Of a DNA stretch of 64,000 nucleotides, positions 7,762 through 26,363 are shown one piece after another (within the stretch, counting starts at the first letter, position 1; each line of letters begins with the position of its first letter). A program made the translations under genes and the position numbers. Origin of the DNA: Roseinatronobacter domitianus (lineage in GTDB: Bacteria > Pseudomonadota > Alphaproteobacteria > Rhodobacterales > Rhodobacteraceae); assembly GCF_023336755.1 (NCBI RefSeq), contig NZ_JALZWP010000003.1:124001-188000 (forward strand), read 5' to 3'. The notes below the pieces were generated by a model that was given only the letters and a program-made list of their open reading frames with translations, made no database searches and was not told where the DNA came from.

Positions 7762-7785
7762 TTCGCGGCCTTTTGTATGTCGGTT

Positions 7786-8439: not shown

Positions 8440-8585
8440 GATGTGAACTCTCCGGTTCAGTTTCTGTCCGCCTGTGCTTGCCACAGAATGCCCCTCATCG
8501 CAACATGGCATAGCATACCAAGCGCGGGTTTTGCGTTGGCCCGCGCTATGCTAGGGCAAGCAAAAAGCAGCAAAGGGGAAACACC

Positions 8586-9035: not shown

Positions 9036-9105
9036 TTCCAGCTTTACAGGTCTATCACATCGCAGCATTACCCTACACGCTATTATAAAGCATCAGGAGT
9101 ATAAC

Positions 9106-9492: not shown

Positions 9493-9516
9493 GGCAACGC
9501 CCCTCTTGCCAAAATC

Positions 9517-9546
9517 GGGCGCGCAGGTTATGCGCGCCCTGCCTTT
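9517..9546 (+). terminator. Rho-independent terminator of mscL
   Basis: Perfect 8-base stem GGGCGCGC (9517-9524) / GCGCGCCC (9532-9539) with a 7-base loop, followed by TGCCTTT. Confidence 0.8.
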
Positions 9547-9591
9547 CAGAAGGCACAAGTCTCCGCAACCTTGTCAAAACGGACCATATAC

Positions 9592-10227
9592 ATGACCCGC
9601 ACTTACCTGCCCGGCGTAATCGCCATGGCGGCCATTGTCGTCGCCTCGAATATTCTTGTTCAATTCCTGTTCGGAAACTGGCTGACATGGGGGGCGTTCA
9701 CCTACCCTCTGGCCTTCTTGGTCAATGACGTGATGAACCGCGTCTACGGCCCCCAAGCCGCGCGCCGCGTTGTGTGGGTCGGCTTCGCCGTCGGCGTTAT
9801 CTGTTCGTTGATCGGCACGCAGATCATGGGCGAATTCGGTCCATTGGTGACATTGCGCATCGCGCTGGGGTCGGGCACCGCGTTTCTGGTGGCCCAACTG
9901 GTCGATGTTGCGATTTTCGACCGCCTGCGCGAAGACAAGCATGGCGGAGCATGGTGGCGCGCGCCGTTGGCATCGACCTTGGTCGGGTCCACGCTGGATA
10001 CTGCCTTATTTTTCAGCATCGCGTTTTCTGCGTCGTTGATTTTCCTGGAACCCGCCAATGACGTGTCATGGGCCGGGGAAATCCTGCCACTGCTTGGTTT
10101 TGGGCCCGAAGCCCCGCTTTGGGTGTCGCTCGCAGTCGCAGATTGGGCGGTCAAACTGTCGCTCGCGCTGCTGGCACTAGTGCCTTTCCGCCTGATCGTT
10201 TCGAAAATGACGCAACCTGTCGCATAA
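9592..10227 (+). CDS. Queuosine precursor transporter, VUT/YhhQ family
   Basis: About 211 residues with six hydrophobic segments, belonging to the VUT/YhhQ family. E. coli YhhQ imports the 7-cyano- and 7-aminomethyl-7-deazaguanine precursors of queuosine. The family signature is seen in the first helices (ASNILVQF, then TYPLAFLVNDVMNRVYG). I chose the ATG at 9592; a TTG at 9571 would add seven residues but has no better ribosome site. It sits alone after mscL, and its stop is close to a TTGACA promoter element serving the following short transcript. Confidence 0.8.
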   Translation: MTRTYLPGVIAMAAIVVASNILVQFLFGNWLTWGAFTYPLAFLVNDVMNRVYGPQAARRVVWVGFAVGVICSLIGTQIMGEFGPLVTLRIALGSGTAFLVAQLVDVAIFDRLREDKHGGAWWRAPLASTLVGSTLDTALFFSIAFSASLIFLEPANDVSWAGEILPLLGFGPEAPLWVSLAVADWAVKLSLALLALVPFRLIVSKMTQPVA

Positions 10228-10233
10228 TTTCTT

Positions 10234-10262
10234 TTGACAAACACAAAATATGTGCCACCATT
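10234..10262 (+). promoter_or_regulatory. Promoter-like element ahead of the arfB leader
   Basis: A perfect TTGACA (10234-10239) lies seven bases past the YhhQ-family stop. The matching -10 is poor (ACCATT at 17-base spacing, CATTCT at 19-base spacing), which is common in alphaproteobacteria. Position and context support a start just before the mini-ORF. Confidence 0.5.
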
Positions 10263-10281
10263 CTCCTAACAGCAACGTAAT

Positions 10282-10297
10282 GAAAGGAGGTGGTCCA
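10282..10297 (+). promoter_or_regulatory. Extended Shine-Dalgarno sequence, 16 bases complementary to the 16S 3' end
   Basis: GAAAGGAGGTGGTCCA pairs with the expected alphaproteobacterial 16S tail (UGGAUCACCUCCUUUC) over all 16 positions with one G-U wobble, and ends directly at the GTG start codon of the mini-ORF. Ordinary sites in this window pair over 4-6 bases. The anti-Shine-Dalgarno sequence is established knowledge, not visible in the window. Confidence 0.8.
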
Positions 10298-10354
10298 GTG
10301 TCTAGAGTGATGTTGGAGAGAGGTGCGAAGACAGTCAGAGGGGGCAAAACCTGA
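10298..10354 (+). CDS. 18-residue basic leader peptide mini-ORF upstream of arfB
   Basis: A GTG-started reading frame of 18 codons plus TGA encodes MSRVMLERGAKTVRGGKT, which is strongly basic, with no cysteine or membrane segment. The start is fixed by the exceptional Shine-Dalgarno sequence with its AGGAGG core seven bases away. An in-frame ATG at 10280 would give 24 residues but has no ribosome site. The stop codon lies in the loop of a possible GGGGC/GCCCC hairpin (10341-10345/10360-10364), which excludes a second hairpin CCCC/GGGG (10361-10364/10368-10371). A long stem-loop follows before arfB. I do not recognise the peptide. It looks like a translation-sensing leader, or a very short gene in its own transcript. 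Confidence 0.55.
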   Translation: MSRVMLERGAKTVRGGKT

Positions 10355-10426
10355 CGGCAGCCCCGATGGGGAACCCTTTTTGATTGGGCCGTGCTCTAAT
10401 TCGGCTCCATCTCCTGAAGCTCGTTT

Positions 10427-10456
10427 AGGGCCGTCCATTATTTGGGCGGCCCTTTC
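10427..10456 (+). terminator. Stem-loop between the mini-ORF and arfB, terminator or attenuator
   Basis: AGGGCCGTCC (10427-10436) / GGGCGGCCCT (10444-10453), a 10-base stem with one G-U pair, then TTTC. The 3' arm could instead pair with GGGCCG at 10386-10391. A second 6-base stem CTTTCG (10452-10457) / CGAAAG (10466-10471) lies directly before the arfB start. The short T run makes termination efficiency uncertain. Confidence 0.6.
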
Positions 10457-10475
10457 GTTCACCGGCGAAAGCAAG

Positions 10476-10895
10476 ATGCGCATAACTGATGAAATCACCC
10501 TGCAAGACTGGGAATTGACCGAAACATTTACCCGATCGCAAGGACCGGGCGGGCAGAATGTGAACAAGGTGTCATCTGCGGTGGAATTGCGGTTCGAAGC
10601 CGCGCGCAGCCCAAACCTGACCGATCCCGTCAAGGCGCGCCTGCGACGGCTGGCCGGACGGCGCTGGACGCAGGATGGCGCGTTAATTTTGCGGGTGGAG
10701 GAGACGCGCAGCCAGACCCGTAATCGCGAAATTGCGCGCGCCCGGTTGGCAGAGCTGATCGTGCAGGCCACCAAACGGCCCAAACCGCGCATTGCCACGC
10801 GGCCAACGCTGGCCAGCAAGCGCAGACGGCTTGACGCGAAGTCGCATCGCGCTGGCATAAAAGCTGGCCGGGCCGAGCCTCGTGAAGACCCATGA
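10476..10895 (+). CDS. arfB: Alternative ribosome-rescue factor ArfB (peptidyl-tRNA hydrolase YaeJ)
   Basis: A 139-residue class-I release-factor-like protein. The catalytic GGQ loop is intact (RSQGPGGQNVNKV, residues 22-34), and the C-terminal tail is Lys/Arg-rich (from about residue 95), as needed to enter the empty mRNA channel of stalled ribosomes. It hydrolyses peptidyl-tRNA on ribosomes lacking a stop codon. I start at the ATG that gives MRITDEI; the frame is open further upstream, but that part encodes the leader stem-loop. The start codon lies 20 bases after that structure with no clear Shine-Dalgarno, so expression may depend on the leader. Confidence 0.92.
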   Translation: MRITDEITLQDWELTETFTRSQGPGGQNVNKVSSAVELRFEAARSPNLTDPVKARLRRLAGRRWTQDGALILRVEETRSQTRNREIARARLAELIVQATKRPKPRIATRPTLASKRRRLDAKSHRAGIKAGRAEPREDP

Positions 10896-10977
10896 AGATG
10901 TGATGCGCAAATGCGCTTAAGCGTCATAAAACTGATACATAACCATGGCACGCGGGCCGAAATGAAGGAACGAGCAG

Positions 10978-11433
10978 ATGAATACCGCAAGCAGGCCCAT
11001 AGACATCCTGAACAACGCGCTGGAATTCGTGCGGCCCGCGTTCGTGCAGGTCGCGGCGCTTTGCTTGCGCAACGGCGCACGCGGGACGGAGGTGTTGCTG
11101 ATCCAGACCCTGACGCGCAAATTGTGGATGATCCCCAAAGGCTGGCCGATGGACGGGATGACGTTGGCAGAGGCAGCCGCTCAGGAAGCGTGGGAAGAAG
11201 CCGGAGTGCGCGGGCGGATTACAACGGACCCGGTAGGCGCATTCACCTATACCAAGATCAAAAGCAGCGGGCTGCCCGTGCAATGCCGCGCGCAGGTATT
11301 CCGACTGGATGTGACCGAAACCTCCGATACGTTTCCCGAAGCGAACAAGCGCACCCGTCAATGGGCCAGCCCGCAAAAGGCCGCCTCGGCGGTCCAGAAC
11401 CCACACTTGGCGCGCTTACTGGCATCATTGTAA
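10978..11433 (+). CDS. Nudix hydrolase, DIPP-like
   Basis: A 151-residue Nudix-fold protein. The Nudix box is visible as PKGWPMDGM followed by AEAAAQEAWEEAGV. The usual REUxEE is QEAWEE here, so the first Arg is Gln, while the metal-binding glutamates are kept. The PKGWP opening resembles the diphosphoinositol-polyphosphate/diadenosine-polyphosphate hydrolase subgroup, so a dinucleoside polyphosphate or similar pyrophosphate is the likely substrate. It lies between arfB and a phosphate transporter gene on the same strand, with gaps of 82 and 111 bases, so co-transcription is uncertain. Confidence 0.8.
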   Translation: MNTASRPIDILNNALEFVRPAFVQVAALCLRNGARGTEVLLIQTLTRKLWMIPKGWPMDGMTLAEAAAQEAWEEAGVRGRITTDPVGAFTYTKIKSSGLPVQCRAQVFRLDVTETSDTFPEANKRTRQWASPQKAASAVQNPHLARLLASL

Positions 11434-13027: not shown

Positions 13028-13465
13028 TTAGCTGCGGCGGACACGGATAATCACATCAACGCGTGCGATCTCTGCGCCCGCTGGTGCCGCAGGCAATCGG
13101 CTGATTTCCAGCTCGGACGCCGGCGCATCGCTCAGCTCCTGAGTATCTTCCCAGAAGAAATGCGGGTGATCGTCGGTGCATGTATCGAAATACGATTTCT
13201 GTCCATCGACCGTGATCTCATTCATCAGCCCAGCGTCGCAAAACGCCCGAAGCGTGTTGTAAACGGTCGCGAGGGACACGCTTTCACCACGTTCTTTTGC
13301 GGCAATGAACAGCCCTTCGGCGGTCACATGACGATCGCAACCGTCCCCCACCAGCAGGCTGGCCAATGACAAACGCTGACGCGTTGGCCGCACTTGCGCG
13401 CCGGACAACCAGCTTGCGCCGGTCTGCATGGCGGCATCGGTGATATCTGCAAAATTCGTATCCAT
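13028..13465 (-). CDS. irr: Irr-type iron response regulator, Fur family
   Basis: A 145-residue Fur-superfamily protein with an N-terminal winged helix (VRPTRQRLSLASLL and the recognition helix SLATVYNTLRAF) and a C-terminal dimerisation domain. The Fur His cluster is shortened to DDHPHFFWED, typical of the Irr branch, which senses haem/iron status rather than Fe(II) directly. In Rhodobacteraceae an irr gene sits next to fabA, as here, where it is divergent from fabA across 126 bases. I see no clear iron-control-element palindrome in that gap. Confidence 0.78.
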   Translation of the reverse strand: MDTNFADITDAAMQTGASWLSGAQVRPTRQRLSLASLLVGDGCDRHVTAEGLFIAAKERGESVSLATVYNTLRAFCDAGLMNEITVDGQKSYFDTCTDDHPHFFWEDTQELSDAPASELEISRLPAAPAGAEIARVDVIIRVRRS

Positions 13466-13591
13466 GCCTATTAAATACGCGCGCGCGACGCAGAATTCAA
13501 ATGAAAACAGGTCGCAGGGGGCACCACGCGGTCTTGCGGCCCGTCAAATGAGGGTGATAAACCCGTGCAACGCCAAATAAGGAGTGCCGAT

Positions 13592-14101
13592 ATGTCCCAG
13601 TTCCCGACCTCGTTTGACAAAGAGGGCCTGCTGGCCTGCGCCCGCGGCGAATTGTTCGGCCCCGGCAATGCGCAACTGCCCGCGCCGCCGATGCTGATGA
13701 TGGACCGCATCACGGATGTATCCTCGGATGGTGGATTGCATGGCAAAGGGCATATCACAGCGGAATTCGACATCACGCCCGACCTGTGGTTTTTCGAATG
13801 TCATTTCCCCGGAAACCCCATCATGCCCGGCTGTCTGGGCCTTGATGGCCTGTGGCAGTTGACCGGCTTCAACCTTGGCTGGCGTGGCTGGCAGGGTCGC
13901 GGCTACGCGCTTGGCGTGGGCGAGGTGAAGTTGACCGGAATGGTGCGCCCCGACCGCAAGATGCTGACTTACAAGGTGGACTTTACCAAAGCGATCCAGA
14001 CCCGCCGCCTGACCATGGGCGTGGCCGATGGAACGGTCGAGGCCGATGGCGAAGTCATCTATCAGGTCAAGGACATGAAAGTCGCCCTGTCAGAGGGCTA
14101 A
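13592..14101 (+). CDS. fabA: 3-hydroxydecanoyl-ACP dehydratase/isomerase
   Basis: A 169-residue hot-dog-fold enzyme that dehydrates beta-hydroxydecanoyl-ACP and isomerises the trans-2 product to cis-3, the entry to anaerobic unsaturated fatty-acid synthesis. The catalytic His lies in [14 protein letters not shown] and the Asp in CLGLDGLWQ. The start is set by the Shine-Dalgarno AAGGAG seven bases before the ATG. It is separated from its usual partner fabB by an Rrf2 regulator gene. Confidence 0.95.
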
Positions 14102-14159
14102 CCCGGCAGGCACTCTGCCGCACAAAACAGGTGGGGTGGTGGCGGCAGACCAACCCAAT

Positions 14160-14173
14160 TTGATTCAGATCAG
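14160..14173 (+). promoter_or_regulatory. FNR-type box upstream of the Rrf2 gene
   Basis: TTGATTCAGATCAG matches TTGAT-N4-ATCAA at nine of ten defined positions and is centred about 58 bases before the Rrf2 start codon. FnrL, DnrD and NnrR of Rhodobacter and Paracoccus recognise this motif. It suggests oxygen- or nitric-oxide-responsive expression of the regulator. Confidence 0.55.
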
Positions 14174-14224
14174 GACATTTCACGCAAATCCGGTTACAAA
14201 AGCCCCAACCGAAAGCGGAGAGCC

Positions 14225-14692
14225 ATGCGCCTGACGACCAGAACAAACCTTGCCCTGCGGGTCTTGATGACCTGCGGGATCAACCACGGCGAAAAGCTGC
14301 GCACCGCCGATATTGCCGAGCGCTGCAATGCCTCGGTGCATCACCTGTTGCAGGTTGTCCACACGTTGCAAGAGCACGGGTTTGTCGAAACATTGCGCGG
14401 GCGCGGCGGCGGATTGAAGCTGTCACGCGACAGCGAAGACATCTCTATTGGGGAAGTGTTTCGCATCTTCGAATCCGGCACGCCTTTTGCCGAGTGCTTT
14501 TCGCCAGAGGGCAACACCTGCCCGCTTGTCAGCGCCTGCCGCTTGCGAAATTACATTACACGCGCGCTGGACGCCTTCTACCACGAATTGGACATGGTAA
14601 CGCTGCAAGACCTTGTGCGCGGAAATTGTGGGTTGCGGGAATTGCTTGCAATGGCGCCCCAAGCCCCCAAAAACTGTGCGCCCGCGCAATAA
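14225..14692 (+). CDS. nsrR: Rrf2-family Fe-S regulator, NsrR-like
   Basis: A 155-residue Rrf2 protein. The opening MRLTTRTNLALRVLM and the wing RGRGGGLKLSR are hallmarks of NsrR. Three cysteines that would bind the Fe-S cluster are in ECFSPEGNTCPLVSACRL, with spacing suited to NsrR-type clusters; further cysteines occur in the C-terminal tail. NsrR senses nitric oxide and represses detoxification genes. RirA and IscR relatives are possible alternatives, so the symbol is tentative. It lies in the same orientation between fabA and fabB, behind an FNR-type box. A link to fatty-acid genes is not established. Confidence 0.7.
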   Translation: MRLTTRTNLALRVLMTCGINHGEKLRTADIAERCNASVHHLLQVVHTLQEHGFVETLRGRGGGLKLSRDSEDISIGEVFRIFESGTPFAECFSPEGNTCPLVSACRLRNYITRALDAFYHELDMVTLQDLVRGNCGLRELLAMAPQAPKNCAPAQ

Positions 14693-14784
14693 CTCGCGCC
14701 AATCAAGTATCACGCTTGCGGCCTTGCCCTAACAGCGTGCCTGCCCTAGACAGGCTGGCGGCATGAATACAAGGGGGGACGCCA

Positions 14785-16014
14785 ATGCGTCGCGTGGTCA
14801 TTACAGGTCTGGGTGTCATTTCGCCCATTGGGAACAACGCCGAGGAAGTTTCGGACAGCCTGCGCAAAGGGCGGTCGGGCATTGTCTTTGCCCCGGAATA
14901 TGCTGAACACGGGTTCCGCAGCCAGGTCAAAGGCGAACCGAAAATTGTGCTTGAGGACCATATCGACAAGCGCAACCTCCGCTTCATGGGGCCGGGTGCT
15001 GCGTATAACTTTCTGTCCATGGAGCAAGCGATTTCGGATGCCGGGCTAGAGGAAGCGGATATTTCCAACCCGCGCACCGGGCTTGTGACCGGATCGGGCG
15101 GGCCGTCCACATCGAACCTGTTTCAGGCACACAAGATCGTGGTCGAAAAGGGCAGCCCCAAGCGCATGGGACCATTCATGGTCACGCGCTGCATGTCGTC
15201 CACGAACTCTGCCTGTCTGGCGACCCCCTTCAAAATCAAAGGCGTGAATTACTCGATCACATCGGCCTGTTCGACATCGGCGCATTGCATCGGCAACGGC
15301 GTGGAACTGATCCAGATGGGCAAGCAAGACATTGTCTTCGCGGGCGGAGGCGAGGAGCTGGACTGGACCCTGTCCTGCCTGTTTGACGCGATGGGCGCGA
15401 TGTCGTCCAAGTATAACGACACGCCCGAAGCCGCCGCGCGCGCGTTCGACGCCACCCGCGACGGCTTCGTCATCGCTGGCGGTGGCGGGATGCTGGTTCT
15501 GGAAGAACTGGAACACGCGAAAGCACGCGGTGCCAAAATCTATGCCGAAGTCACAGGCTATGGGGCCACATCCGACGGGCATGACATGGTCGCCCCCTCT
15601 GGTGAAGGCGGCGAGCGGTCGATGCGGCTGGCGCTTGGCACCCTGCCCGAAGACCGGAAGGTCAGCTACATCAACGCGCATGGCACCTCGACCCCCGCAG
15701 GTGACGTGACAGAGGTTGAAGCCATCCGCCGTATCTGGGGCGAGGGCAATGTGCCCCCCATCTCATCCACCAAGTCGCTGACCGGCCACAGCCTTGGTGC
15801 GACCGGCGTGCATGAGGCGATCTATTCGCTGCTGATGATGCAGGGCAATTTCATCACCGCCTCTGCTAATGTAAGCGAACTGGACCCGGCCATCCGCGAG
15901 GGCGAAATCGCCACATCGCTGGTCGAAAACGTGGAACTGGATTCGGTTCTCTCCAACAGCTTCGGCTTTGGCGGCACCAACGCGACACTGCTGTTCAGCG
16001 CCTGGCGCGACTAA
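14785..16014 (+). CDS. fabB: Beta-ketoacyl-ACP synthase I
   Basis: A 409-residue condensing enzyme that elongates the cis-3-decenoyl-ACP formed by FabA. The nucleophile Cys is in [10 protein letters not shown] (about residue 162), and the two active-site histidines are in [12 protein letters not shown] and GHSLGATG. Length matches FabB (406 in E. coli). A Shine-Dalgarno GGGGGA lies upstream. fabI begins 10 bases past its stop, so the two are certainly co-transcribed. Confidence 0.95.
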
Positions 16015-16024
16015 GGGGGCTGTC

Positions 16025-16813
16025 ATGACAGGTCTGATGCAAGGCAAACGCGGGCTGGTCATGGGCGTGGCCAATGAACGCTCTATCGCGTGGGGAATCG
16101 CGCAGGCACTGGCGGCCGAGGGCGCGGAACTTGCCTTCAGCTACCAGGGCGAAGCCTTCGGGAAGCGCGTGGAACCCTTGGCCGCGAGTGTCGGGTCCGA
16201 CCTGTTATTGGATGTCGATGTCAGCGACGATGCGTCCATGGATGCCGCCTTTGCCGCGCTGAAAGACCGCTGGGGCAGCATGGATTTTCTGGTCCATGCC
16301 ATCGCTTTTTCGGACAAGGCCGAACTGACGGGCCGTTTCCGCGACACCAGCCGCGCAAACTTTGCGCATTCGCTGGATATTAGCTGCTACAGCTTCATTG
16401 ATGCGGGTCGCCGCGCGGCAGAGTTGATGCCGAATGGCGGCTGCCTGCTGACCGTGACTTTCCAAGGGTCCAACAAGGTGACGCCGTTTTACAACGTGAT
16501 GGGCGTGGCCAAGGCCGCGCTGGAAAGCGCCACGCGCTACCTGGCCAATGATCTGGGCCCGGAGGGCATTCGCGTGAACGCGATAAGCCCCGGCCCGATG
16601 AAAACGCTCGCAGGCGCGGCCATCGGCGGCGCGCGCAAGACCTACCGCCATACCGAGGCAAACGCTCCCTTGCGGACAAACGCCACGCTCGGCAGCGTGG
16701 GCGGTGCGGCGGTGTTTCTGGCCAGCGACTACGGCGCGCATACCACGGGAGAAATTGTGCATGTCGATGGCGGCTATCACATCATGGGCTTGCCGCAGGT
16801 AGAGAACCTGTAA
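16025..16813 (+). CDS. fabI: Enoyl-ACP reductase (NADH)
   Basis: A 263-residue short-chain-dehydrogenase-family enzyme that reduces trans-2-enoyl-ACP in the last step of each elongation cycle. The FabI-specific nucleotide motif is GVANERSIAWGIA, and the catalytic Tyr and Lys are in FYNVMGVAKAALE. The start ATG follows AAGGGGG. It completes the fabA-(nsrR)-fabB-fabI block and ends at a double hairpin. FabI is the known target of triclosan-type inhibitors. Confidence 0.93.
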   Translation: MTGLMQGKRGLVMGVANERSIAWGIAQALAAEGAELAFSYQGEAFGKRVEPLAASVGSDLLLDVDVSDDASMDAAFAALKDRWGSMDFLVHAIAFSDKAELTGRFRDTSRANFAHSLDISCYSFIDAGRRAAELMPNGGCLLTVTFQGSNKVTPFYNVMGVAKAALESATRYLANDLGPEGIRVNAISPGPMKTLAGAAIGGARKTYRHTEANAPLRTNATLGSVGGAAVFLASDYGAHTTGEIVHVDGGYHIMGLPQVENL

Positions 16814-16850
16814 AGGGGGGCTGCGCGCCCCCCTCTGGGCCTTGCGGCCC
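16814..16850. terminator. Double hairpin between fabI and the fluoride channel genes
   Basis: Stem GGGGGG / CCCCCC (within 16815-16833), followed by a second stem GGGCC (16837-16841) / GGCCC (16846-16850), in the 39-base gap between convergent genes. Confidence 0.65.
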
Positions 16851-16852
16851 AT

Positions 16853-17212
16853 TCACCCCGGCGGAGTATTTCGGGCAAGATGAACGCGCTTTCCAAGCCT
16901 AAGGCCGAAGGCAACGCCACCAAGCGATAACGCAAGTGTTGCCGAGACGTAAAGCGCGGCGGCAGCGTAGTTGCCCGCTTGCAGGAAAAGCAGCGTTTCC
17001 AATCCGAACAGTGAAAAGGTGGTGAAGCCGCCGCAAAACCCCGTCATGCCAAAGGACCGTGCGCGTGGCGACAAGGGCAAAGCCGCCAATAGACCGATCA
17101 GAACCGAGCCCGCGACATTCGCAGCCAAGGTGCCGTAAATCGGCAAAAGCCACCACAGCCCCGCCCGTGCGCCTGCACCAATGCCGGCTCCAAGGGCGAC
17201 CCAGAGGCTCAT
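16853..17212 (-). CDS. crcB: CrcB/FluC fluoride channel, second subunit gene
   Basis: A 119-residue protein with four hydrophobic segments. The FluC motif GFCGGFTTFSLFGLE (residues 63-77) holds the Phe-box and polar track residues that conduct fluoride, and the first helix has GAGARAGLWW. The start ATG overlaps the stop of the upstream crcB by four bases. FluC channels are antiparallel dimers. Species with two adjacent genes usually build heterodimers from subunits of opposite membrane orientation, so this pair probably forms one channel. No crcB-type fluoride riboswitch is evident upstream. Confidence 0.85.
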   Translation of the reverse strand: MSLWVALGAGIGAGARAGLWWLLPIYGTLAANVAGSVLIGLLAALPLSPRARSFGMTGFCGGFTTFSLFGLETLLFLQAGNYAAAALYVSATLALSLGGVAFGLRLGKRVHLARNTPPG

Positions 17213-17562
17213 AGACCGCCCAGCCAAAAGCCGAGCGCCACAGCCGCAACCGACAGCATCACAGAGCCTGCGACATTTGCCACTGCACGCGCGTGCCCTC
17301 CTGCTTGCCACATCTGCACGGTGTTTAGCGCAAAGCTGGATACCGTGGTGTAGGCCCCCAGAACGCCAGTTGCCAGAAACAGCCAAACCAAGCTGCCGGG
17401 CGCGGCGTTCGCCGCCACCACCCCCAGCGCCAGGCTACCGGTCGTGTTGACGACTGCGATCCCGCGCGCTCCGGACAGGCGCGTGCATATCCAACTGCGG
17501 ACAAGACCGCCCAAGGCTCCACCCGCGATAATTGCCAGAACTGCCATGATTTCCGGTTTCAT
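17209..17562 (-). CDS. crcB: CrcB/FluC fluoride channel, first subunit gene
   Basis: A 117-residue four-helix protein with the first-helix motif GGALGGLVRSW, the asparagine helix VVNTTGSLALG and the channel motif GVLGAYTTVSSFALN. The last is the FluC GxxGGxTTFSTF motif with Ala, Val and Ser substitutions, so this copy is the more divergent of the two. It overlaps the next crcB gene by four bases and is translated first. The two copies differ in charge distribution, as expected for dual-topology partner subunits. Confidence 0.85.
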   Translation of the reverse strand: MKPEIMAVLAIIAGGALGGLVRSWICTRLSGARGIAVVNTTGSLALGVVAANAAPGSLVWLFLATGVLGAYTTVSSFALNTVQMWQAGGHARAVANVAGSVMLSVAAVALGFWLGGL

Positions 17563-17679
17563 TCTGCCTGCTTACCCGATTTAGAAGCCGCGCCCCAAGC
17601 CGAAACCCGCACCCCAAGATTGACTTGGCCTGACACCGCGCGGTAAGGCGCAAAGCAGCAACAACAAGAGGTCGCGCAA

Positions 17680-18645
17680 GTGTCGTCCCAAGTGATCGAA
17701 GATGCAATCACCGCAGGCCGCGACGTGCTGCATACAGAGGCGCGCGCCCTTGGCAGAATGGCCGATGAGCTTGGGGCCGAATTTGCGCAAGCCGTGGAAA
17801 TACTGACTGGCTTGAAAGGCAGGCTGATCGTCGTGGGCATCGGCAAATCAGGCCATGTCGGGCGCAAGATGGCGGCGACCTTCGCCTCTACCGGGACGCC
17901 TGCGCATTTCGTCCACGCATCGGAAGCCAGCCATGGCGACCTTGGTATGATAACGCAGGATGATTGCTGCATCTTGCTGTCCAATTCCGGCGAGTCGCGC
18001 GAATTGAGTGATGTCATCGGCTATACCCGGCGGTTCAACATTCCCATGATCGCGATCACGCGCGCACCAAACAGCACGCTTGGCAGCCGTGCCGATATCG
18101 TGCTCGCCCTGCCCGATGTGCCCGAAGCCTGCGCAATCGGCATGGCGCCCACCACCTCGACCACGGCCAGCATGGCCTTGGGCGATGCGCTGGCGGTCGC
18201 GGTCATGCGCCGCAAGGGCTTTAACCCGGAGCGGTTTCACGTCTTTCACCCCGGCGGCAAGCTAGGCGCGCAATTCCTGCGCGTGGCGGACCTGATGTAT
18301 ACCGGTGACATGTTGCCGCTGGTGGCAGAGGACACGCCGATGTCCGATGTTCTGATGCGGATGACCGGCACCGGCTACGGTGTGGCAATCATCATCGAGG
18401 GGCAGCGCCTGACCGGCATCATTACCGATGGCGACTTGCGCCGCAACATGGACGGGTTGATGACACGCCGCGCCGCAGATGTCGCGACCCGCAACCCCAA
18501 GACCATCCAGCCCGACGCACTGGTGTCCGAAGCTGTGGCGGTGATGAACGGAAAGAAGGTCAATGCGCTTTGCGTGGTGGACGCGGCAGGAAACGTGCAA
18601 GGCATGATCCGGCTGCATGATTGCTTGCGCGCAGGGGTGGTTTGA
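17680..18645 (+). CDS. kdsD: Arabinose-5-phosphate isomerase, KpsF/GutQ family
   Basis: A 321-residue enzyme converting ribulose-5-phosphate to arabinose-5-phosphate, the first step toward the lipopolysaccharide sugar Kdo. The N-terminal SIS domain (VVGIGKSGHVGRKMAATFASTG and SNSGESRE) holds the sugar-phosphate site. The catalytic His is in PTTSTTASMALGDALA-adjacent sequence and the FHPGG motif. Two CBS domains follow (about residues 205-321). A second, decayed copy of its last 26 codons lies 817 bases downstream, past the FkbM gene. The Kdo transferase waaA is 4 kb away. Confidence 0.92.
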   Translation: MSSQVIEDAITAGRDVLHTEARALGRMADELGAEFAQAVEILTGLKGRLIVVGIGKSGHVGRKMAATFASTGTPAHFVHASEASHGDLGMITQDDCCILLSNSGESRELSDVIGYTRRFNIPMIAITRAPNSTLGSRADIVLALPDVPEACAIGMAPTTSTTASMALGDALAVAVMRRKGFNPERFHVFHPGGKLGAQFLRVADLMYTGDMLPLVAEDTPMSDVLMRMTGTGYGVAIIIEGQRLTGIITDGDLRRNMDGLMTRRAADVATRNPKTIQPDALVSEAVAVMNGKKVNALCVVDAAGNVQGMIRLHDCLRAGVV

Positions 18646-18717
18646 AGATTTGTGCGGACCGAAAATTTCATAACATCGAGGGCGTCGATCACGCGCCTGA
18701 AACAAAGGTAAGGCAAC

Positions 18718-19422
18718 ATGAAGAAGGTCGGCGAATACTGGGTTCCGGATGTAGATACATTCTGGTTCAAGAACCTGCGCAAAACCAAGGCGAATTATGA
18801 AAACGGCGGCCATGGAACGCAGTTGCACCACCTGACAGACGCGATGTCCCATATCCGCGTGCAGGTCGGCGATGCACGCATGGCGGCCAGCGTGGCCATT
18901 GATGCGGGCGCAAATGTCGGGGCCTATGCGCGCCACATGGCCGGGCAATTCGGCCATGTTCATGCGTTCGAGCCTGCGCAAGACACCTTCGATTGTCTAA
19001 AGCGTAATGTCGCCGATTGGGGGCTGAAGGACCGGATTACCGTGCATCAAAAAGCAGTGTCAGACGCGCCCGGCGGCGTCAGCATGGGCACGCCGGGGCT
19101 TTTCAGACGCTCTATCTCACGCGAAGTAAGCGGCACGGGCGATATTCCGGCAGTCACGCTCGACAGCCTTGAGATGACAGAGGTTCTGTTCCTGAAATTG
19201 GATGTTGAAGGATATGAATTGAAAACCCTTCATGGAGCGTATGCTCTTCTGGATCGGTGCAAACCTTTTGTGATGATGGAAATGAAAGAGCGCAAAGTGG
19301 CCAAGGGGACAGCGGACATGGCCGCCCATGAGTTTTTGATAGAGCGTGGATATGCAGTAAGTGCGAAGCTGGGGACACCCTTCGTCGACTGGTTATATGC
19401 GCCCGCCCACATGTCGCCATGA
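18718..19422 (+). CDS. FkbM-family SAM-dependent methyltransferase
   Basis: A 234-residue methyltransferase with the SAM motif IDAGANVGAYARHM (about residues 60-73) and the family-defining LKLDVEGYELKTL (about residues 161-173). FkbM enzymes O-methylate sugars or other hydroxyls, often in surface polysaccharides. Base composition falls below that of the neighbours in its 3' third. The gene lies between intact kdsD and a remnant of a second kdsD 3' end, the structure expected if the gene arrived by recombination inside the kdsD tail. The Shine-Dalgarno GGTAAGG precedes the ATG. Confidence 0.8.
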   Translation: MKKVGEYWVPDVDTFWFKNLRKTKANYENGGHGTQLHHLTDAMSHIRVQVGDARMAASVAIDAGANVGAYARHMAGQFGHVHAFEPAQDTFDCLKRNVADWGLKDRITVHQKAVSDAPGGVSMGTPGLFRRSISREVSGTGDIPAVTLDSLEMTEVLFLKLDVEGYELKTLHGAYALLDRCKPFVMMEMKERKVAKGTADMAAHEFLIERGYAVSAKLGTPFVDWLYAPAHMSP

Positions 19423-19461
19423 TAAGATGAATAAAATCACCAAGGCTTTTAAACGGTTTAC

Positions 19462-19542
19462 GCGCTTTGCGTGGTCGATGACGCGCAAGCGGTGCAAAGC
19501 ATGATTCGCCTGCATGATCGCCTGAGCGCCGGCGTGGTCTGA
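19462..19542 (+). pseudogene. Remnant of a kdsD 3' end (last 26 codons)
   Basis: Read from 19462 the sequence gives ALCVVD, then VQ, then MIRLHD and AGVV before a stop. It matches the last 26 residues of the intact kdsD at 20 positions and 62 of 81 bases, including the position of the stop codon. No start codon or upstream homologous part is present. The divergence of about 23 percent is too high for a recent duplication and looks like two alleles, one native and one incoming. Confidence 0.85.
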
Positions 19543-19548
19543 GCCGGG

Positions 19549-21549
19549 CTACTCCGCCAGCAGAACCGGGGCCAAACGGGCGGCAAAGGCTTCGCGCCCG
19601 GCGGCGCTAAGGTGGTCTTCGTCGGTCCACAAACTGCGCTGGCAATTCAGAAAGTCATCCGGCATTTGCAGATCAATCACGGCCATCTGATCGACCACGG
19701 AAACCCGCGCCATGGCTTGCGCCCGACGGGCGATCTCTTGCGTCATGCGGTCGAATAGTTCCGACTGGCCCGGGCGCAGGGCGAAATCGTGGCGACATCC
19801 TTTCACCATGACATAGCTGTCGGGCAGGTGCATTTCGATGCGCGGTGTCAACCATATCACCGGCACATGGACCGACAAGGACTCAAGATAACGACCGATC
19901 GCGCCGATCAACTCTGTCTTGACCACTAGCTCCATGAAGGGGATCGGCATCTCTGGACCGAAAGTGCGGAACAGCCGCTCGGCGCTACGCCCGGCGGCAT
20001 CGGCCACCATATGCTGGCCTGCGCTTTCAAGGATCACATGGCGAAACAGCCCCGGGTCTTGCGCCACCAGTGCGCGGAACGGGTCCAGATTGCACGAATC
20101 CTCGGGCGTGCCGGGCCTGCACCCCGCGCGCGACAGGCCGAACAGGAATGGCGTGTCGCTGACCGCGAACAGACCTTCCACCAGGTCCAGCGCGTGGCTG
20201 TCGCCCAGCACAGCAACGCCGGGGCCATATTGGTCGCGGCATGCCGCCAAGCGGGCCGCCAAGGCTGTATCAAGCTCTGGGGCGCGGTAGACGAAACGGC
20301 ACTCGGTCGGGTCAGAATAGCGCGCGATCATATCGGCGTCTTGCAGCACTTCGAAGGTGCGGCGATCTTCGTCGCTTGCCTGCGCAAGCCACAGCGCCGC
20401 GCGCCCCTCGGTCTGCAACCCCCAGACCCCGAACGCGACAAAGCCCGCCATGCAAGATAGAACGGCGGCAAACAGGGCCTTGCGCTGCGGCAGGAACCGC
20501 GCCCGACCCTGTCCATGATGCCTGAAAGGGCGCTCGACAAGAAACCAGCTCAGCGCCGCCAGCACAAAGACCAAGGCGCATAGCAACAACATCACATGCA
20601 GCGCAGGCTCGGCTCCCAAATAGATCCGGGTGAAGGCAAAGAGCGGCTGGTGCCAGAGATACGCACTGTAACTGACAAGCCCGACCGCAACTAGCCCGTG
20701 CCAGCCCAAAACACGCCCCAGAACGGTGCCCTTGTCGCAGAACAAGATCAGCGCCACCACGCCGCAGACGGGCAGCAGCGTAGCATAGGACGGGAACAGC
20801 ACCGACTTGTCATACAAAAAGATCGCCGCCAAAATCGCGCCGAAACCAGCGATACCGACCGCCTCGCGCAGCATGCGCGGCAGGGCATGCAAACGGGTGC
20901 GTATGGCCGTTGATGACAGCGCAAAGGCGCATAGCGCGCCTGCCAACAGCTCCCATGCACGGGTCGGGAAGAAAAAGAAGCTTTGCGCCGGTTTGATCCG
21001 CCAGGCGGCCTCGCTCAGCGCGAAGCTGCACAGCAGCAAAACAAGGCTGGTCCAAAAGGCCGCGCGTTTGCCGCCCAATCGCCATGCCAGCAGCACTATG
21101 GGCGGAAAGATCAGATAGAACTGCTCTTCGACCGCAAGCGACCATGTGTGCAAAAGCGGGTTGAATTCTGCCGCCGGGGCGAAATAATCCAGCCGGTCAA
21201 TGAAGAGGATGTTGGACAGGAACAGCGCCACCGCCGCTGCGGTTTCCGCGAAATCCTTGAACGCGGGGGGCAGCAGTAGCCAATACGCGACCGGGATGCA
21301 CACCGCCATGACCAGAAACAGCGCGGGCAGAATGCGCCGCGCGCGCCGCTCGAAGAACTGCCGGAAGGTGAATTGCCCCTGTTCCAAATCGCGTAATATA
21401 ATAGAAGTGATGAGGTAGCCAGAAATGACGAAGAACACGTCTACGCCGACGAACCCACCCTGAAATAGGGTAAACCCGGCGTGGAAGAACACCACCGGCA
21501 AGATCGCAATCGCGCGCAGGCCGTCAATCTCTGGGCGATAAGCAATCAT
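19549..21549 (-). CDS. OafA/YrhL-type membrane O-acyltransferase with C-terminal SGNH domain
   Basis: A 666-residue protein. Residues 1-350 form an acyltransferase-3 domain with about ten membrane helices and the family opening YRPEIDGLRAIAILPVVFFHAG. The periplasmic C-terminal half (about 390-666) is an SGNH hydrolase-like domain with GDSHALD and the terminal catalytic pair DEDHLSAAG. Fused proteins of this kind O-acetylate lipopolysaccharide or other surface glycans. It is the third gene of a minus-strand set after waaA and a glycosyltransferase, which fits modification of the lipopolysaccharide. Confidence 0.85.
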   Translation of the reverse strand: MIAYRPEIDGLRAIAILPVVFFHAGFTLFQGGFVGVDVFFVISGYLITSIILRDLEQGQFTFRQFFERRARRILPALFLVMAVCIPVAYWLLLPPAFKDFAETAAAVALFLSNILFIDRLDYFAPAAEFNPLLHTWSLAVEEQFYLIFPPIVLLAWRLGGKRAAFWTSLVLLLCSFALSEAAWRIKPAQSFFFFPTRAWELLAGALCAFALSSTAIRTRLHALPRMLREAVGIAGFGAILAAIFLYDKSVLFPSYATLLPVCGVVALILFCDKGTVLGRVLGWHGLVAVGLVSYSAYLWHQPLFAFTRIYLGAEPALHVMLLLCALVFVLAALSWFLVERPFRHHGQGRARFLPQRKALFAAVLSCMAGFVAFGVWGLQTEGRAALWLAQASDEDRRTFEVLQDADMIARYSDPTECRFVYRAPELDTALAARLAACRDQYGPGVAVLGDSHALDLVEGLFAVSDTPFLFGLSRAGCRPGTPEDSCNLDPFRALVAQDPGLFRHVILESAGQHMVADAAGRSAERLFRTFGPEMPIPFMELVVKTELIGAIGRYLESLSVHVPVIWLTPRIEMHLPDSYVMVKGCRHDFALRPGQSELFDRMTQEIARRAQAMARVSVVDQMAVIDLQMPDDFLNCQRSLWTDEDHLSAAGREAFAARLAPVLLAE

Positions 21550-21621
21550 TCGAGAATGTGTTCCTGAAGTTCAAAAACCCCGCCAATCTAGACGAGAGCG
21601 GCAGGGCCTAGCTGACGTTTG

Positions 21622-22317
21622 TCAGTTCCCGTCCTTCGCCTCATACTCCGCAGCCTCTGCCAGCCATTCGGCGGCATAATCCACGTCTTGCCATTCCTTG
21701 AACCACGGGCCGCCGCGCGTGTGGTGCACGGCTTGCGGGTAGCCAGTGTCAGGCTTGTCATACCAGCCTTCTAGCCAGTTCCATCCGGTCGGCAGCGCGC
21801 CGATTTCGTCATCCTGCGCCCATTGCAGGCGGTGCAGAAAGGCGCCGCTTTCACGGTTCACCAGTTCCGGCGTCAGCTGCTGCGTGCTGGGATGGCCGCA
21901 ATTCATCAGCATGAAGGACGACCAGTTCTTGCGCGGATAAGCAGATTGCGGCACCCCATCCATCTTGGTGGTTTCCTTGGGAACGTAATCGTGCTGCACA
22001 ACCATCACGGCCTTGGACGGGTCCATGTAATCCTGCAATTCGGCCACATCGCCGAAGAACAGGAAGTCGCAATCCACGAAGATCGCCCAACCCTCATAGC
22101 CCGCCAAATGCGGCACGAGGAAACGCGAATAGGTGAACTCGGTCGAGGCCAGCGGGTCGATCTCTCGCGTATACAAGCCCTGATCCACGAGGTCTTGCAG
22201 CTTGATCGGCATCACCTCGACCGGGATAGTGGCGTGCTTTTCCAGCGACTGCTTGGCCACCTGATACGCGATATCCTCGCGCGAATCCCAGCCGATATAA
22301 ACCCGAAGCTTGTCCAT
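21622..22317 (-). CDS. Glycosyltransferase-like protein (GT8-type fold)
   Basis: A 231-residue soluble protein opening with LRVYIGWDSREDIAYQV, the pattern of a GT-A fold glycosyltransferase. A candidate DxD metal motif is in FVDCDFLFFGD (about residues 79-89). The later HHTRGGPWFKEW segment resembles the acceptor side of GT8-like enzymes. It lies 67 bases downstream of waaA on the same strand and precedes the O-acyltransferase, so a lipopolysaccharide or surface glycan role is likely. The donor and acceptor sugars cannot be deduced. Confidence 0.65.
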   Translation of the reverse strand: MDKLRVYIGWDSREDIAYQVAKQSLEKHATIPVEVMPIKLQDLVDQGLYTREIDPLASTEFTYSRFLVPHLAGYEGWAIFVDCDFLFFGDVAELQDYMDPSKAVMVVQHDYVPKETTKMDGVPQSAYPRKNWSSFMLMNCGHPSTQQLTPELVNRESGAFLHRLQWAQDDEIGALPTGWNWLEGWYDKPDTGYPQAVHHTRGGPWFKEWQDVDYAAEWLAEAAEYEAKDGN

Positions 22318-22383
22318 GTCTCAGACCTTTCCGTTGCTATGCCACGTCATTACCGCGCCTTGGCCACCGGGAAAACCGGTATT

Positions 22384-23694
22384 TCAACTACACCGATCGC
22401 TTGGCAGCATGGCGCTTATCGTCTCGAACGCCCGGTCCAGCGGGGCCATGACCTGCGCCTGCACGCGGGCGGCCTTTGCCAAATAACGCGCGCGAAAGTC
22501 AGGGTCTTGCGCATCGACCACTGCCTGCGCCATGGCGGCGGTATCTGGCACGCATAATGCAGCCCCGTGCGTGGCCAACAGGTCATACGCCGCGTGGAAA
22601 TTTCCGACATTCGGACCATGCACGACCAACACTCCCAGCCCCACGGCTTCAAACGGGTTCTTGCCGGTCATGACCCGCCCCTCCAGCGGCAAAGACTGGC
22701 CGGGATAAGCGACCGGCACCAGCCGCAACCAGACCCCCATCTCGCCCATGCTGTCAGCGATATAGACCTGTGTTTCAGGCGTAATCGGCTGGCCCTGGGA
22801 CCGGCGGGCAATTCGTGCGGAGTCAAATACGGCCCGCGCATCGGCCTCTGTGCGGTCGGCATCGCGCATCTGGCGCGGCGCGATTATCATCAGAAGATCC
22901 GGGCAAGCGTCCAACGCTTGTGCGTGCACCTGCATGACCTGCGACTCTTCCTCGGTCCGGGTGGACGCCGCCAGCCAGCGCGGGCGGTCGCCGATTTGTG
23001 CTTTAATTTCAGCGCGGGCCTGCGCGTGGTCGGGCGGCGGGGTCGACGCGGCTTTTAGCAACCCTGTGACCCTGATCTTGCCCATCGGCGCGCCGATCTG
23101 GGCGAATAGCTCTGCCGAGCGGTCGTCCTGCACATGGATTTCACCAAACAGGTCCATCAGCCAGCCATTGGCGCTGGCCGCGCGTTTGCGGTTGCGCAGG
23201 CGGCGCGGAGTGACATGGGCGTTGAGGATGACCATGGGGATGCCGCGTTTGTGGGTTTCCGCCAGCAGGCGCGGCCAGAGGTCCATTTCCGACAGCACAA
23301 ACGCATCGGGGCGCCAATGGTCTAGGAACCGCGCAACGGCACCGGGGTAATCTGCGGGCGCGTAATGGTGAATGACGCGCGGGGGCAGTTGGCGCTTGGC
23401 CATCGCATCGGCGGCGGCGCGGGTGATCGAGGTCAGCAGGAAATGCGTCTGCGGGCGGGTCTGCGACAGGCGGTCGAGCAGCGTCAGAAGCACCGTCACC
23501 TCGCCTACGCTGACACCGTGGAGCCACAGGAGTTCGCCATCGGGGCGGGCCTGCACGGGGTGGCCCCAGCGTTCGGATAAGCGCGCGGGGTCTTCCTTGC
23601 CCTTCTTCGCACGCCAGTTCAGCGCCGCGTGCCAGATCGGCGCGGACAGGCGCGAGAACGCCATATAGGCCAGGATCAGGGCAGGTGTCTGCAT
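22384..23694 (-). CDS. waaA: 3-deoxy-D-manno-octulosonic acid transferase
   Basis: A 436-residue membrane-anchored GT30 enzyme that attaches Kdo from CMP-Kdo to lipid A precursor. The N-terminal anchor helix is short. The domain pattern ARLSERWGHP, the catalytic glutamate in WLHGVSVGEVTVL (about residue 65), FVLSEMDLWPRLL, and the C-terminal donor-site motif GKNPFEAVGLGV identify WaaA/KdtA. In most species the motif reads HAASVGE; here it is HGVSVGE. It is the first gene of the minus-strand envelope set and complements kdsD on the other strand. Confidence 0.9.
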   Translation of the reverse strand: MQTPALILAYMAFSRLSAPIWHAALNWRAKKGKEDPARLSERWGHPVQARPDGELLWLHGVSVGEVTVLLTLLDRLSQTRPQTHFLLTSITRAAADAMAKRQLPPRVIHHYAPADYPGAVARFLDHWRPDAFVLSEMDLWPRLLAETHKRGIPMVILNAHVTPRRLRNRKRAASANGWLMDLFGEIHVQDDRSAELFAQIGAPMGKIRVTGLLKAASTPPPDHAQARAEIKAQIGDRPRWLAASTRTEEESQVMQVHAQALDACPDLLMIIAPRQMRDADRTEADARAVFDSARIARRSQGQPITPETQVYIADSMGEMGVWLRLVPVAYPGQSLPLEGRVMTGKNPFEAVGLGVLVVHGPNVGNFHAAYDLLATHGAALCVPDTAAMAQAVVDAQDPDFRARYLAKAARVQAQVMAPLDRAFETISAMLPSDRCS

Positions 23695-23760
23695 GGGTCA
23701 GGCCCCTTGGAACGGATCACAGGGCTTGTCGCCGATTGGCGGGGCGGGTGCAAGATGGGG

Positions 23761-23910
23761 TTAGGTCTGGGGCTGGGGCTTGGGCTTGGGTTTCGGTGTC
23801 TTGAACCACGCAGGCTTGAATTGCGCGAAATCGAGCGTCGAAAGGTCTTGATCCAGAAAGTCATCGGCTTGCGCGTCAGAGGTCAGGACGGGAACAACAG
23901 AAACTGACAT
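23761..23910 (-). CDS. Truncated CopG/COG5304-like antitoxin fragment, 49 residues
   Basis: A 49-codon frame whose residues 9-36 (TSDAQADDFLDQDLSTLDFAQFKPAWF) resemble the N terminus of CopG-type antitoxins of the COG5304 group. The ribbon-helix-helix that should follow is absent; instead the frame ends in a Lys-Pro/Gln-Pro repeat (KTPKPKPKPQPQT) encoded by GGGCTT-like hexamers. It is probably a decayed antitoxin gene, less likely a short functional protein. No toxin gene is adjacent. Confidence 0.4.
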   Translation of the reverse strand: MSVSVVPVLTSDAQADDFLDQDLSTLDFAQFKPAWFKTPKPKPKPQPQT

Positions 23911-23929
23911 CGGAGCATCCCAACACATC

Positions 23930-23965
23930 ATAAAAAAGAAGCCGTGCAGATCGGTTCTGCACGGC
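23930..23965 (-). terminator. Rho-independent terminator after the 48-residue hypothetical gene
   Basis: Perfect 9-base stem GCCGTGCAG (23941-23949) / CTGCACGGC (23957-23965). On the minus strand it is followed by TTCTTTTTT. It lies 25 bases past the stop of the small gene. Confidence 0.8.
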
Positions 23966-23990
23966 GCGAATTTCAAATAATAGAGCGATT

Positions 23991-24137
23991 TTAGGCGGCT
24001 TTGGCCGTATCGTCGCGCACCGTTGCCACAGATGCCTTGTTATTCGACATGAACATTGAAGTTCGTTTGAAAGCATCCAATCCAACAGCTTCGATCGCGT
24101 TCCTTACAGCAGCTTTCATTTCCAAATGCGTGAGCAT
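23991..24137 (-). CDS. Small hypothetical protein, 48 residues
   Basis: A 48-codon frame from ATG to TAA beginning MLTHLEMKAAVRNAIEAVG, predicted mostly helical and basic, without cysteines or membrane segment. It has a good Shine-Dalgarno (GGAGG, spacing six) and a strong terminator after the stop, both favouring a real gene. It follows the 172-residue hypothetical gene by 45 bases on the same strand and shares its lower G+C content. I do not recognise it. Confidence 0.55.
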   Translation of the reverse strand: MLTHLEMKAAVRNAIEAVGLDAFKRTSMFMSNNKASVATVRDDTAKAA

Positions 24138-24182
24138 CGCTTCCTCCACTCGGGGCTTCGTAGCAGCTTTACCCCATAAACG

Positions 24183-24701
24183 TTACACTTTTGATAAGTG
24201 TAGCCACATCCCTTTTGAATCAACCTTCCAAGATTGTCCAGCAAAACGAAGTTGCATCGCCAATGCGGCAAAAAATTGACGATCATTAGGGCTGCGATAG
24301 TGCAACTTTACGTGTGGGCTGGGTAGGGTTTCTTCGGAGCACTGCAGCAGAGCATTGAAAAAGTAAGCTTGCACTTCAGCGTAGTCGCCTTCCGTGAGTT
24401 CCTCAAAATCATAGTAGGGGGAAAGCACTAGATGTCGCACACGCAGGACTTTTCCTGCGTAGCCCTTGAGTAAGGTGGAGTTCAAAAAACATGCTGCATG
24501 GTGCTTTTTCGTTTCATCTTGTAGTGAGAAAACCCCTGTATCAGCATCAATCTCACCATCGTCACACTCTTCACGAAGCGTCGAAACCGAGGCTCCAGCA
24601 TACGACTCATAGTCTTCACCAAAACCATCACACTCGGCGGCCCACTGATCTTCCAAGCTTTTCCAAGTGCCATCAGACTTGTTTAAACGAATCAATTTCA
24701 T
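24183..24701 (-). CDS. Hypothetical protein, 172 residues, possibly GNAT-like
   Basis: I do not recognise this protein. It is acidic in its first 70 residues, with a stretch GVFSLQD followed by KHHAACFLN, and then KVLRVRHLVLSPYYDFEEL and a helical block. This beta-strand/helix alternation resembles N-acetyltransferases without a visible acetyl-CoA P-loop. G+C content and codon use (many AAA, TTT and CAA codons) differ from the flanking waaA and ettA genes, suggesting recent transfer. It starts six bases before the ettA stop and forms a two-gene unit with the 48-residue frame. Confidence 0.6.
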   Translation of the reverse strand: MKLIRLNKSDGTWKSLEDQWAAECDGFGEDYESYAGASVSTLREECDDGEIDADTGVFSLQDETKKHHAACFLNSTLLKGYAGKVLRVRHLVLSPYYDFEELTEGDYAEVQAYFFNALLQCSEETLPSPHVKLHYRSPNDRQFFAALAMQLRFAGQSWKVDSKGMWLHLSKV

Positions 24702-24707
24702 TTGTTT

Positions 24708-26363
24708 CTACCTCGTAAACTTCTTGTACTTCACCCGCTTCGGCTCCAGCGCGTCCGGGCCAAGCCTGCGCTTCTTGTCTTCCTCATAGGCCGCGAAGTT
24801 GCCTTCGAACCATTCGACATGCGCCTCGCCTTCAAAGGCCAGAATATGCGTGCAGAGCCGGTCAAGGAAGAAGCGGTCGTGCGAAATGATGACCGCGCAG
24901 CCCGCGAAATCTTCCAGCGCCGCTTCCAGCGCTTGCAGGGTTTCCACGTCCAGATCGTTGGTCGGCTCGTCGAGCAGAAGCACATTCCCGCCCGCGCGCA
25001 GCAGTTTCGCCATATGCACGCGGTTGCGTTCACCGCCCGACAGCAGGCCCACCTTCTTTTGCTGGTCGCCGCCCTTGAAATTGAAGGCAGAGCAATAGGC
25101 GCGGCTGTTCACTTCGGCGTCGCCCAGTTGGATAATGTCCAACCCGTCAGAGATTTCTTCCCACACGGTCTTGTTGTCATCCAGCGCGTCGCGCGACTGG
25201 TCGACGTAAGATAGCTGCACCGTATCGCCGAATTCGACTGTGCCTGCATCGGGCTGTTCTTGGCCCGTCAACATGCGGAACAGGGTCGATTTACCTGCGC
25301 CGTTCGGGCCGATCACGCCGACGATGCCGCCGGGCGGCAGTTGGAACGACAGGTTTTCGATCAACAGCTTATCCTCGAACCCTTTGCGCAGGTCGGTCAC
25401 GTCAATGACCTTGCCGCCCAAGCGCGGGCCGTTGGGGATGATGATCTGCGCGCGGCCAACCTTTTCGCGCTCGGACTGGTTGGCCTTTTCCTCATAGGCG
25501 GAAATGCGGGCCTTGGATTTGGTCTGGCGCGCTTTTGCCCCGGCCCTGATCCACTCCAATTCGCGCTCCAGCGATTTCTGGCGCGATTTGTCCTCTCGTG
25601 CTTCCTGCGCCAGCCGTTTGGCCTTTTGTTCCAGCCAAGCCGAGTAGTTGCCTTCGTAGGGAATGCCGCGTCCGCGATCCAATTCCAGAATCCAGCCGGT
25701 GATGTCATCCAGGAAGTAGCGGTCATGGGTGACGATCAGGATCGTGCCTTTGTAGTCGATCAGGTGCTGTTGCAGCCACGCGACCGTTTCCGCGTCCAGA
25801 TGGTTTGTCGGTTCGTCCAACAGCAGCATGTCGGGCGCTTCCAGCAGCAGCTTGCACAGCGCCACGCGGCGGCGCTCGCCCCCTGAGAGGGTTTCGACAT
25901 CGGCGTTGTCGGGCGGGCAGCGCAGCGCTTCCAACGCCACATCCACCTGGCTGTCCAGATCCCACAGGTTTTCCGCGTCGATCTGGTCTTGCAGCGCGGC
26001 CATCTCATCGGCGGTCTCATCGGAGTAGTTCATGGCCAGTTCGTTATAGCGGTCCAGCTTGGCCTGTTTCTCGGCCACGCCCAGCATGACATTGCCGCGC
26101 ACGTCCAGCTCCGGGTCCAGATGTGGTTCCTGCGGCAGGTAGCCAACCTTCGCGCCTTTGGCGGCCCAGGCCTCTCCGGTGAAATCCTTGTCGGCACCGG
26201 ACATGATGCGCAGCAGGGTCGATTTACCCGCGCCGTTCACACCCACAACGCCGATCTTCACACCGGGCAGGAATGACAGACGGATGTTTTCAAAACACTT
26301 CTTACCACCCGGATAGGTCTTGGACACGCCATCCATGTGGTAGACATATTGATACGACGCCAT
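24708..26363 (-). CDS. ettA: ABC-F translational regulator EttA
   Basis: A 551-residue soluble protein with two ABC ATPase domains and no membrane part. Walker A motifs are GVNGAGKST and GPNGAGKST, and signatures LSGGERRRV and LSGGERNRV are both intact. The interdomain linker and the opening [21 protein letters not shown] are specific to EttA, which binds the ribosomal E site and gates the first elongation step according to the ADP/ATP ratio. The C-terminal RVKYKKFTR tail is also family-typical. The start was placed at MASYQYVY; upstream codons lack family similarity. Length matches E. coli EttA (555). Confidence 0.93.

Follow-up and report, generated by a model that had tools for sequence, protein, structure and literature searches.

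In homology-facilitated illegitimate recombination (HFIR) of linear DNA, a homology anchor at one end of the molecule is combined with a non-homologous join at the other, and the outcome is an insertion together with a deletion (PMC3240628). HFIR has been proposed for the T6SS loci of Vibrio cholerae, where a module that is anchored in conserved sequence upstream takes the place of the old gene and shifts it downstream as a leftover (PMC5361080). At Rhs and CdiA (CDI) loci, orphan gene ends are found downstream of the intact gene (PMC3150448). Homologous recombination involving DprA and RecA integrates the DNA that gene transfer agents (GTA) deliver (PMC10883770).

The window, here the whole 64,000-nucleotide stretch of Roseinatronobacter domitianus DNA that was analysed, holds a related layout in which an intact kdsD, an fkbM family methyltransferase gene and a second, stray kdsD tail follow one another. 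Its single non-homologous junction, with the other end presumed homologous, is as in the HFIR described; it differs in being deduced from an old natural event. Leftovers at the T6SS loci are mainly immunity genes, whereas the leftover in the window is an 88-base, apparently dead tail and the anchor would be a sugar-pathway gene. In the Rhs/CdiA description the swapped end changes the toxin, whereas in the window both tails code for one and the same end of the enzyme, with a methyltransferase as cargo.

The intact kdsD and its second tail

The intact kdsD (17680-18645, + strand) encoded a 321 aa sugar-phosphate isomerase of the KpsF/GutQ family, assigned from the open reading frame, SIS plus CBS domains and a score above the cut-off of TIGR00393 (KpsF/GutQ), the score against the KdsD equivalog NF008141 being under its cut-off (305.7 vs 505 bits). 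The end of this gene (18565-18645) recurred beyond fkbM at 19462-19542 with 62/81 bases and 20/26 translated residues identical; both tails ended in TGA and the second began 817 bases after 18645. A recount thus confirmed the repeat exactly as the first-pass annotation had described it, down to the common stop codon and the position past FkbM. The next best 81-base place in the window reached 41/81 on the + strand and 40 on the - strand. With a + strand background for the 81-base tail of mean 21.1 and sd 4.1, the repeat stands about 10 sd over background. Pairwise comparison extended it 7 bases further upstream, to 66/88 between the reference copy at 18558-18645 and the second tail at 19455-19542, both on the + strand. 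When the organism's own genome was searched with kdsD, the window gene was the sole strong match; the tail piece followed at 72% identity over 29 residues, and three further matches reached 26-32%.

Decay of the second tail (hereafter the scar) was evident from its reading frame and its residues. A stop codon lay in frame 29 codons before the scar's own stop, so that 29 codons stay open; these held short internal GTG/ATG starts only and left no room for a CBS domain. Of 15 residues without variation across 21 aligned kdsD proteins, three were altered in the scar, each to a residue seen in none of the 21. The scar looks dead and decaying and, from the repeat, its placement (below), the stop codon and the residues, 19455-19542 was annotated as a putative pseudogene fragment of a G034-like kdsD lineage.

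A conserved separate small gene, or a functional element resembling the kdsD end, is scarcely credible as an explanation of the scar. No positive support for it was found apart from the 29 open codons and their short starts, and the stop directly upstream and the altered invariant residues count against it. So does distribution: among the 24 genomes in which the tail query found a real kdsD end, a second copy was present in the window only, in the DNA searched. These 24 comprised 23 loci, with flanks of up to 1.5 kb, and G452; 7 further loci were too diverged for the tail query. Two findings that the first-pass annotation had named as fatal to its own reading were accordingly absent, the tails being both kdsD and not ends of unrelated genes, and the second tail being no conserved small gene.

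Placement of the two tails and the kdsD-oafA junction of a relative

Six close species were compared, namely the window's own, G452, G034, G028, G015 and G024. The kdsD alignment comprised 21 of 31 kdsD loci (window, G452 and 19 others) and did not take in G026, G008, G002 or the seven loci of greatest divergence (L028-L034); a one-residue gap near the tail was present in 3 of the 21 (G022, G003, G031). The scar was placed in this alignment by maximum likelihood as a partial row.

Over its 88 bases the scar was identical to the kdsD tail of G034 at 79 positions, to those of G028 and G015 at 75 each, to the window's own intact tail at 66, to G024 at 64 and to G452 at 62. Maximum likelihood joined scar and G034 at 87% ultrafast support. 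Grouping the scar with G452 gave AU p 0.012 and SH p 0.09, and grouping it with G014 gave AU p 0.0009; G028, G015 and G024 as nearest kin were none of them rejected (AU p 0.19, 0.19 and 0.45), the scar being only 88 bases long. At sites where G034, G028 and G015 agree, the scar matched them at 12 and the intact tail at 5 (p 0.14). The scar probably derives from another kdsD lineage rather than from duplication of the tail in the window.

An oafA-type acyltransferase gene (19549-21549, - strand; assigned from its open reading frame and AT3 and SGNH domains) is convergent with kdsD and fkbM. The stretch 19460-19601 aligned without gaps, at 88.0% of 142 bases, with a stretch of G034 that runs from the end of that species' intact kdsD through the stop codon into the end of the oafA convergent with it. 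This gap-free alignment identifies the scar as the last part of a kdsD that used to lie next to this oafA. G034 carried no fkbM at its kdsD-oafA junction, and its whole draft genome gave no FkbM match at E 0.001. The oafA of G034 itself lacked its middle (L051 4299-4307), the two ends being joined with no counterpart to window positions 19602-21285.

Collinearity with another species' junction also counts against a tandem copy of the kdsD end in the window that was separated by fkbM and later diverged, an origin that would account for the same stop codon and orientation of the two tails. The grouping of scar and window kdsD that such a duplication predicts was disfavoured by the AU test (p 0.013; SH p 0.09), and we consider this origin very improbable.

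The intact kdsD fell elsewhere. It grouped with G452 at 99% for the whole gene, 97% for nt 511-963 and only 44% for nt 1-420. A topology joining the window to G034 gave AU p 0.016 for nt 511-963 and 0.0495 for the whole gene, while over nt 1-510 the two pairings were tied. The last 88 bases of the intact gene were no closer to G452 (69 shared) than to G034 (71 shared).

In a set of 60 genomes that lacked G452, kdsD looked like a probable mosaic with its crossover around nt 420-510, and the topology tests at that stage were not significant. Most of the signal disappeared when G452 was added, and the mosaic is dropped as a main argument.

With the scar placed beside G034 and the 3' half of the intact gene beside G452, two kdsD lineages most likely meet in the window, at what we read as a recombination seam. 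That the second tail is the scar of such a seam, with fkbM between the two lineages and whichever the direction, is in our judgement highly probable. It would be a clear case of an event of known kind, well supported by the collinear G034 junction and moderately by the trees.

fkbM and the variable glycan region behind kdsD

The fkbM gene (18718-19422, + strand; 234 aa) was identified from its open reading frame and from matches to PF05050 (Methyltransf_21; E 8.1e-17, 62.3 bits, cut-off 22.7) and TIGR01444 (fkbM_fam; E 4e-25, 89 bits, cut-off 37.7); the single PDB match, 2py6, was weak (E 0.0054). GC3 of fkbM was 63.0%, vs 74.1-77.3% in fabB, fabI, kdsD (75.8), oafA, GT8 and kdtA, a difference that suits a foreign fkbM under either order of events. 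All three relatives found at 57% identity or more adjoined Kdo-pathway genes, fkbM lying behind kdsD in G024 (a 76% match), behind kdsA in G023 and convergent with kdtA in L048. G023 (L053 5380-8663) had kdsD-kdsB-kdsA-fkbM in a row, and fkbM may therefore be part of a Kdo gene cluster. Around five relatives at 40-45% identity, kdsD, kdsB, kdsA and kdtA queries found no match within about 1.5 kb. Matches to fkbM were present in 56 records of the plasmid collection, each under 60% identity. The putative role of the cargo is methylation of an LPS-core or Kdo-linked sugar. The change of surface glycan chemistry that the first-pass annotation had expected may follow, judging from gene families. 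Our literature search found no report joining kdsD with FkbM.

Between the tails fkbM was the sole gene with a family match; three antisense open reading frames and a 25-codon frame had no Pfam match. Scans for promoters and terminators scored no higher than shuffled sequence. The earlier statement that no integrase is visible stands, none lying between the tails. The order of restored gene end, cargo and displaced end is what would be expected had an integrase-type element brought a replacement end for kdsD and pushed the old end past its far side. Such gene-end integration is most improbable here, with no integrase between the tails and no long perfect att core common to them (they differ throughout, 66/88), even granting that an old core could have decayed.

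Directly behind fkbM lay an AT-rich spacer of 32 bases (19423-19454, + strand; 28% GC). An ATG at 19427 opens the 25-codon frame (MNKITKAFKRF...), and the spacer is possibly the cut start of a further gene. A degenerate pattern for this gene, allowing up to 2 mismatches, was found among 37 genus genomes (own included) at the window place only; none of the other 36 held the proposed gene, and no donor was found among them. The non-homologous junction falls within 19423-19459, in the stretch from the fkbM stop to the scar; the match with G034 sets in at 19455-19460, and a few bases of microhomology are possible.

The region from the kdsD stop to the end of ettA (18646-24709) differed between species in alignments of 400 bases or more. 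In 20 of 30 kdsD loci (L001, L006-L034) kdsD was followed by kdsB and kdsA, which was not so in the six close species. There, kdsD was followed by fkbM, the scar and oafA in the window; by fkbM and then a 55% identical oafA in G024, where the contig ends; by the oafA with its middle missing in G034; by a family 2 glycosyltransferase gene in G028 and G015; and by a Kdo-transferase-domain gene, a capsule-type gene and, further on, an AT3 acyltransferase gene in G452. The Kdo-transferase-domain gene of G452 (L136 8317-9525) was 30% identical to the window kdtA, and the 18 kb of L136 held no better kdtA match.

Long alignments broke off at the kdsD stop codon, at 18645 with G452, 18646 with G034 and 18649 with both G028 and G015; G024, which carries fkbM, aligned on to 19410. 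The stop codon was thus the left border of the variable glycan genes in 4 of the 4 compared relatives without fkbM there. The G452 alignment resumed at 24710, at the end of ettA, and everything between differed. Those with G034, G028 and G015 resumed at GT8-kdtA (from 21286, 21628 and 21629, respectively, to 23756-23764) and again at 24707-24715. GT8-kdtA was common to the window and these three species and was not found in the 18 kb G452 locus. From the shared stop at the end of kdsD and the scattered resumption, the left border is sharp and common to the species and the right border is not one point. Within the region, which otherwise differs from G452, 108 bases after kdtA (23669-23776) matched L136 17382-17487 at 92.6%; part of them also matched L136 12313-12390 at 79%, and they are possibly an intergenic repeat.

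Direction and mechanism of the probable exchange

Flanking DNA was also compared. The left flank 3391-11384 grouped the window with G452 (91%) and the flank 13028-17600 grouped it with G024 (93%); the latter includes two CrcB-type fluoride channel genes back to back at 16853-17562 on the - strand, both below curated cut-offs. On the right flank G452 was nearer to G028 (85.4%) than to the window (84.7%), and ileS placed G452 with G034 (74%). In gyrB (G452 not included) and kdsA the order among the others was not settled, and the order stayed unsettled in the species tree from gyrB, kdsA, fabB, fabI, kdtA, GT8 and ileS. A concatenated tree was not used because several window open reading frames were only 27-39% identical to some genomes, being either misaligned or a different gene. 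rpoB (found in 6 of 9 genomes, G034 not among them) and valS (missing or split in some) were left out of the trees. The comparison of tails in relatives that the first-pass annotation had called for separated the two, the scar going best with G034 and the intact 3' half with G452.

Since the intact kdsD, its 3' half and the left flank 3391-11384 all go with G452, nothing marks the intact gene as foreign, and it is the scar that groups with the other kdsD lineage. The remaining flanks are discordant (G024; ileS), so either direction is possible. We regard it as about an even chance that the scar entered with an oafA arm, as its left margin, and that the intact kdsD is the chromosome's own. This direction reverses the order first given for the locus and, with the local phylogeny mixed, the preference leans only mildly. 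A recombination scar at the end of kdsD was correctly recognised in the first-pass annotation, as the two kdsD lineages, the fkbM between them and the G034 junction without fkbM bear out; its claim that kdsD-fkbM was the foreign segment fared less well, the intact kdsD going with G452.

In that original order, a foreign kdsD 3' half with fkbM would have entered a resident kdsD, and an illegitimate join on its right, some 84 bases short of the resident stop, would have left the resident tail behind as the scar. Nt 1-510 slightly favoured G034 and nt 511-963 favoured G452, a pattern expected of a crossover within kdsD, and at the pre-G452 stage the switch in site likelihoods along the gene was uneven (92 of 5000 codon shuffles gave one as large; separate Fisher tests gave p 0.016-0.10). 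The low GC3 of fkbM and its position directly behind kdsD in G024 too are also in keeping with this order. Against it, the 5' preference for G034 over G452 amounts to only 0.7 log units, identity between the window and G452 is about even along kdsD (78-88% per 120 nt), no fkbM lies in the 18 kb around kdsD in G452, whose gene is the closest kin to the intact kdsD, and the left flank 3391-11384 goes with G452 as well. We hold the original order to be possible but rather less likely.

Whichever the direction, the seam would have set a kdsD-fkbM arm, with a kdsD like that of G452, beside an arm of kdsD tail and oafA like that of G034. We infer a one-sided mechanism, in which DNA of a relative may have recombined into the variable glycan stretch by homology at one end and end-joining at the other, as in HFIR. 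The last ~88 bases of a G034-like kdsD would have been joined without homology behind fkbM and would then have decayed, and the homologous crossover would sit either in kdsD or upstream of it, or in oafA or downstream of it; trees and identity along kdsD showed no clear breakpoint. The vehicle may have been transformation or a gene transfer agent. TIGR02217, which we take to be a gene transfer agent gene family and which the search result labels a conserved hypothetical family, was over its cut-off in the organism's own genome (2 matches), in all 4 near relatives searched and, of 14 control genomes, in Caulobacter vibrioides alone. Presence of this family makes such a vehicle plausible and is no evidence for the event itself.

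A broader reading of the locus is offered more tentatively still. The 3' end of kdsD could serve, in this branch of the genus, as an integrase-free docking point, with conserved kdsD on one side and GT8-kdtA/ettA on the other serving as homology anchors. Glycan genes (fkbM, oafA, the family 2 glycosyltransferase gene and the Kdo-transferase-like gene) would be swapped between them, the surface polysaccharide would thereby be changed, and stray kdsD ends would be the fossils of exchanges with homology on one side. A decayed gene end of another lineage, lying beside an intact copy, directly documents recombination across species, and this one suggests that the DNA following kdsD is a site of exchange of surface-sugar genes.
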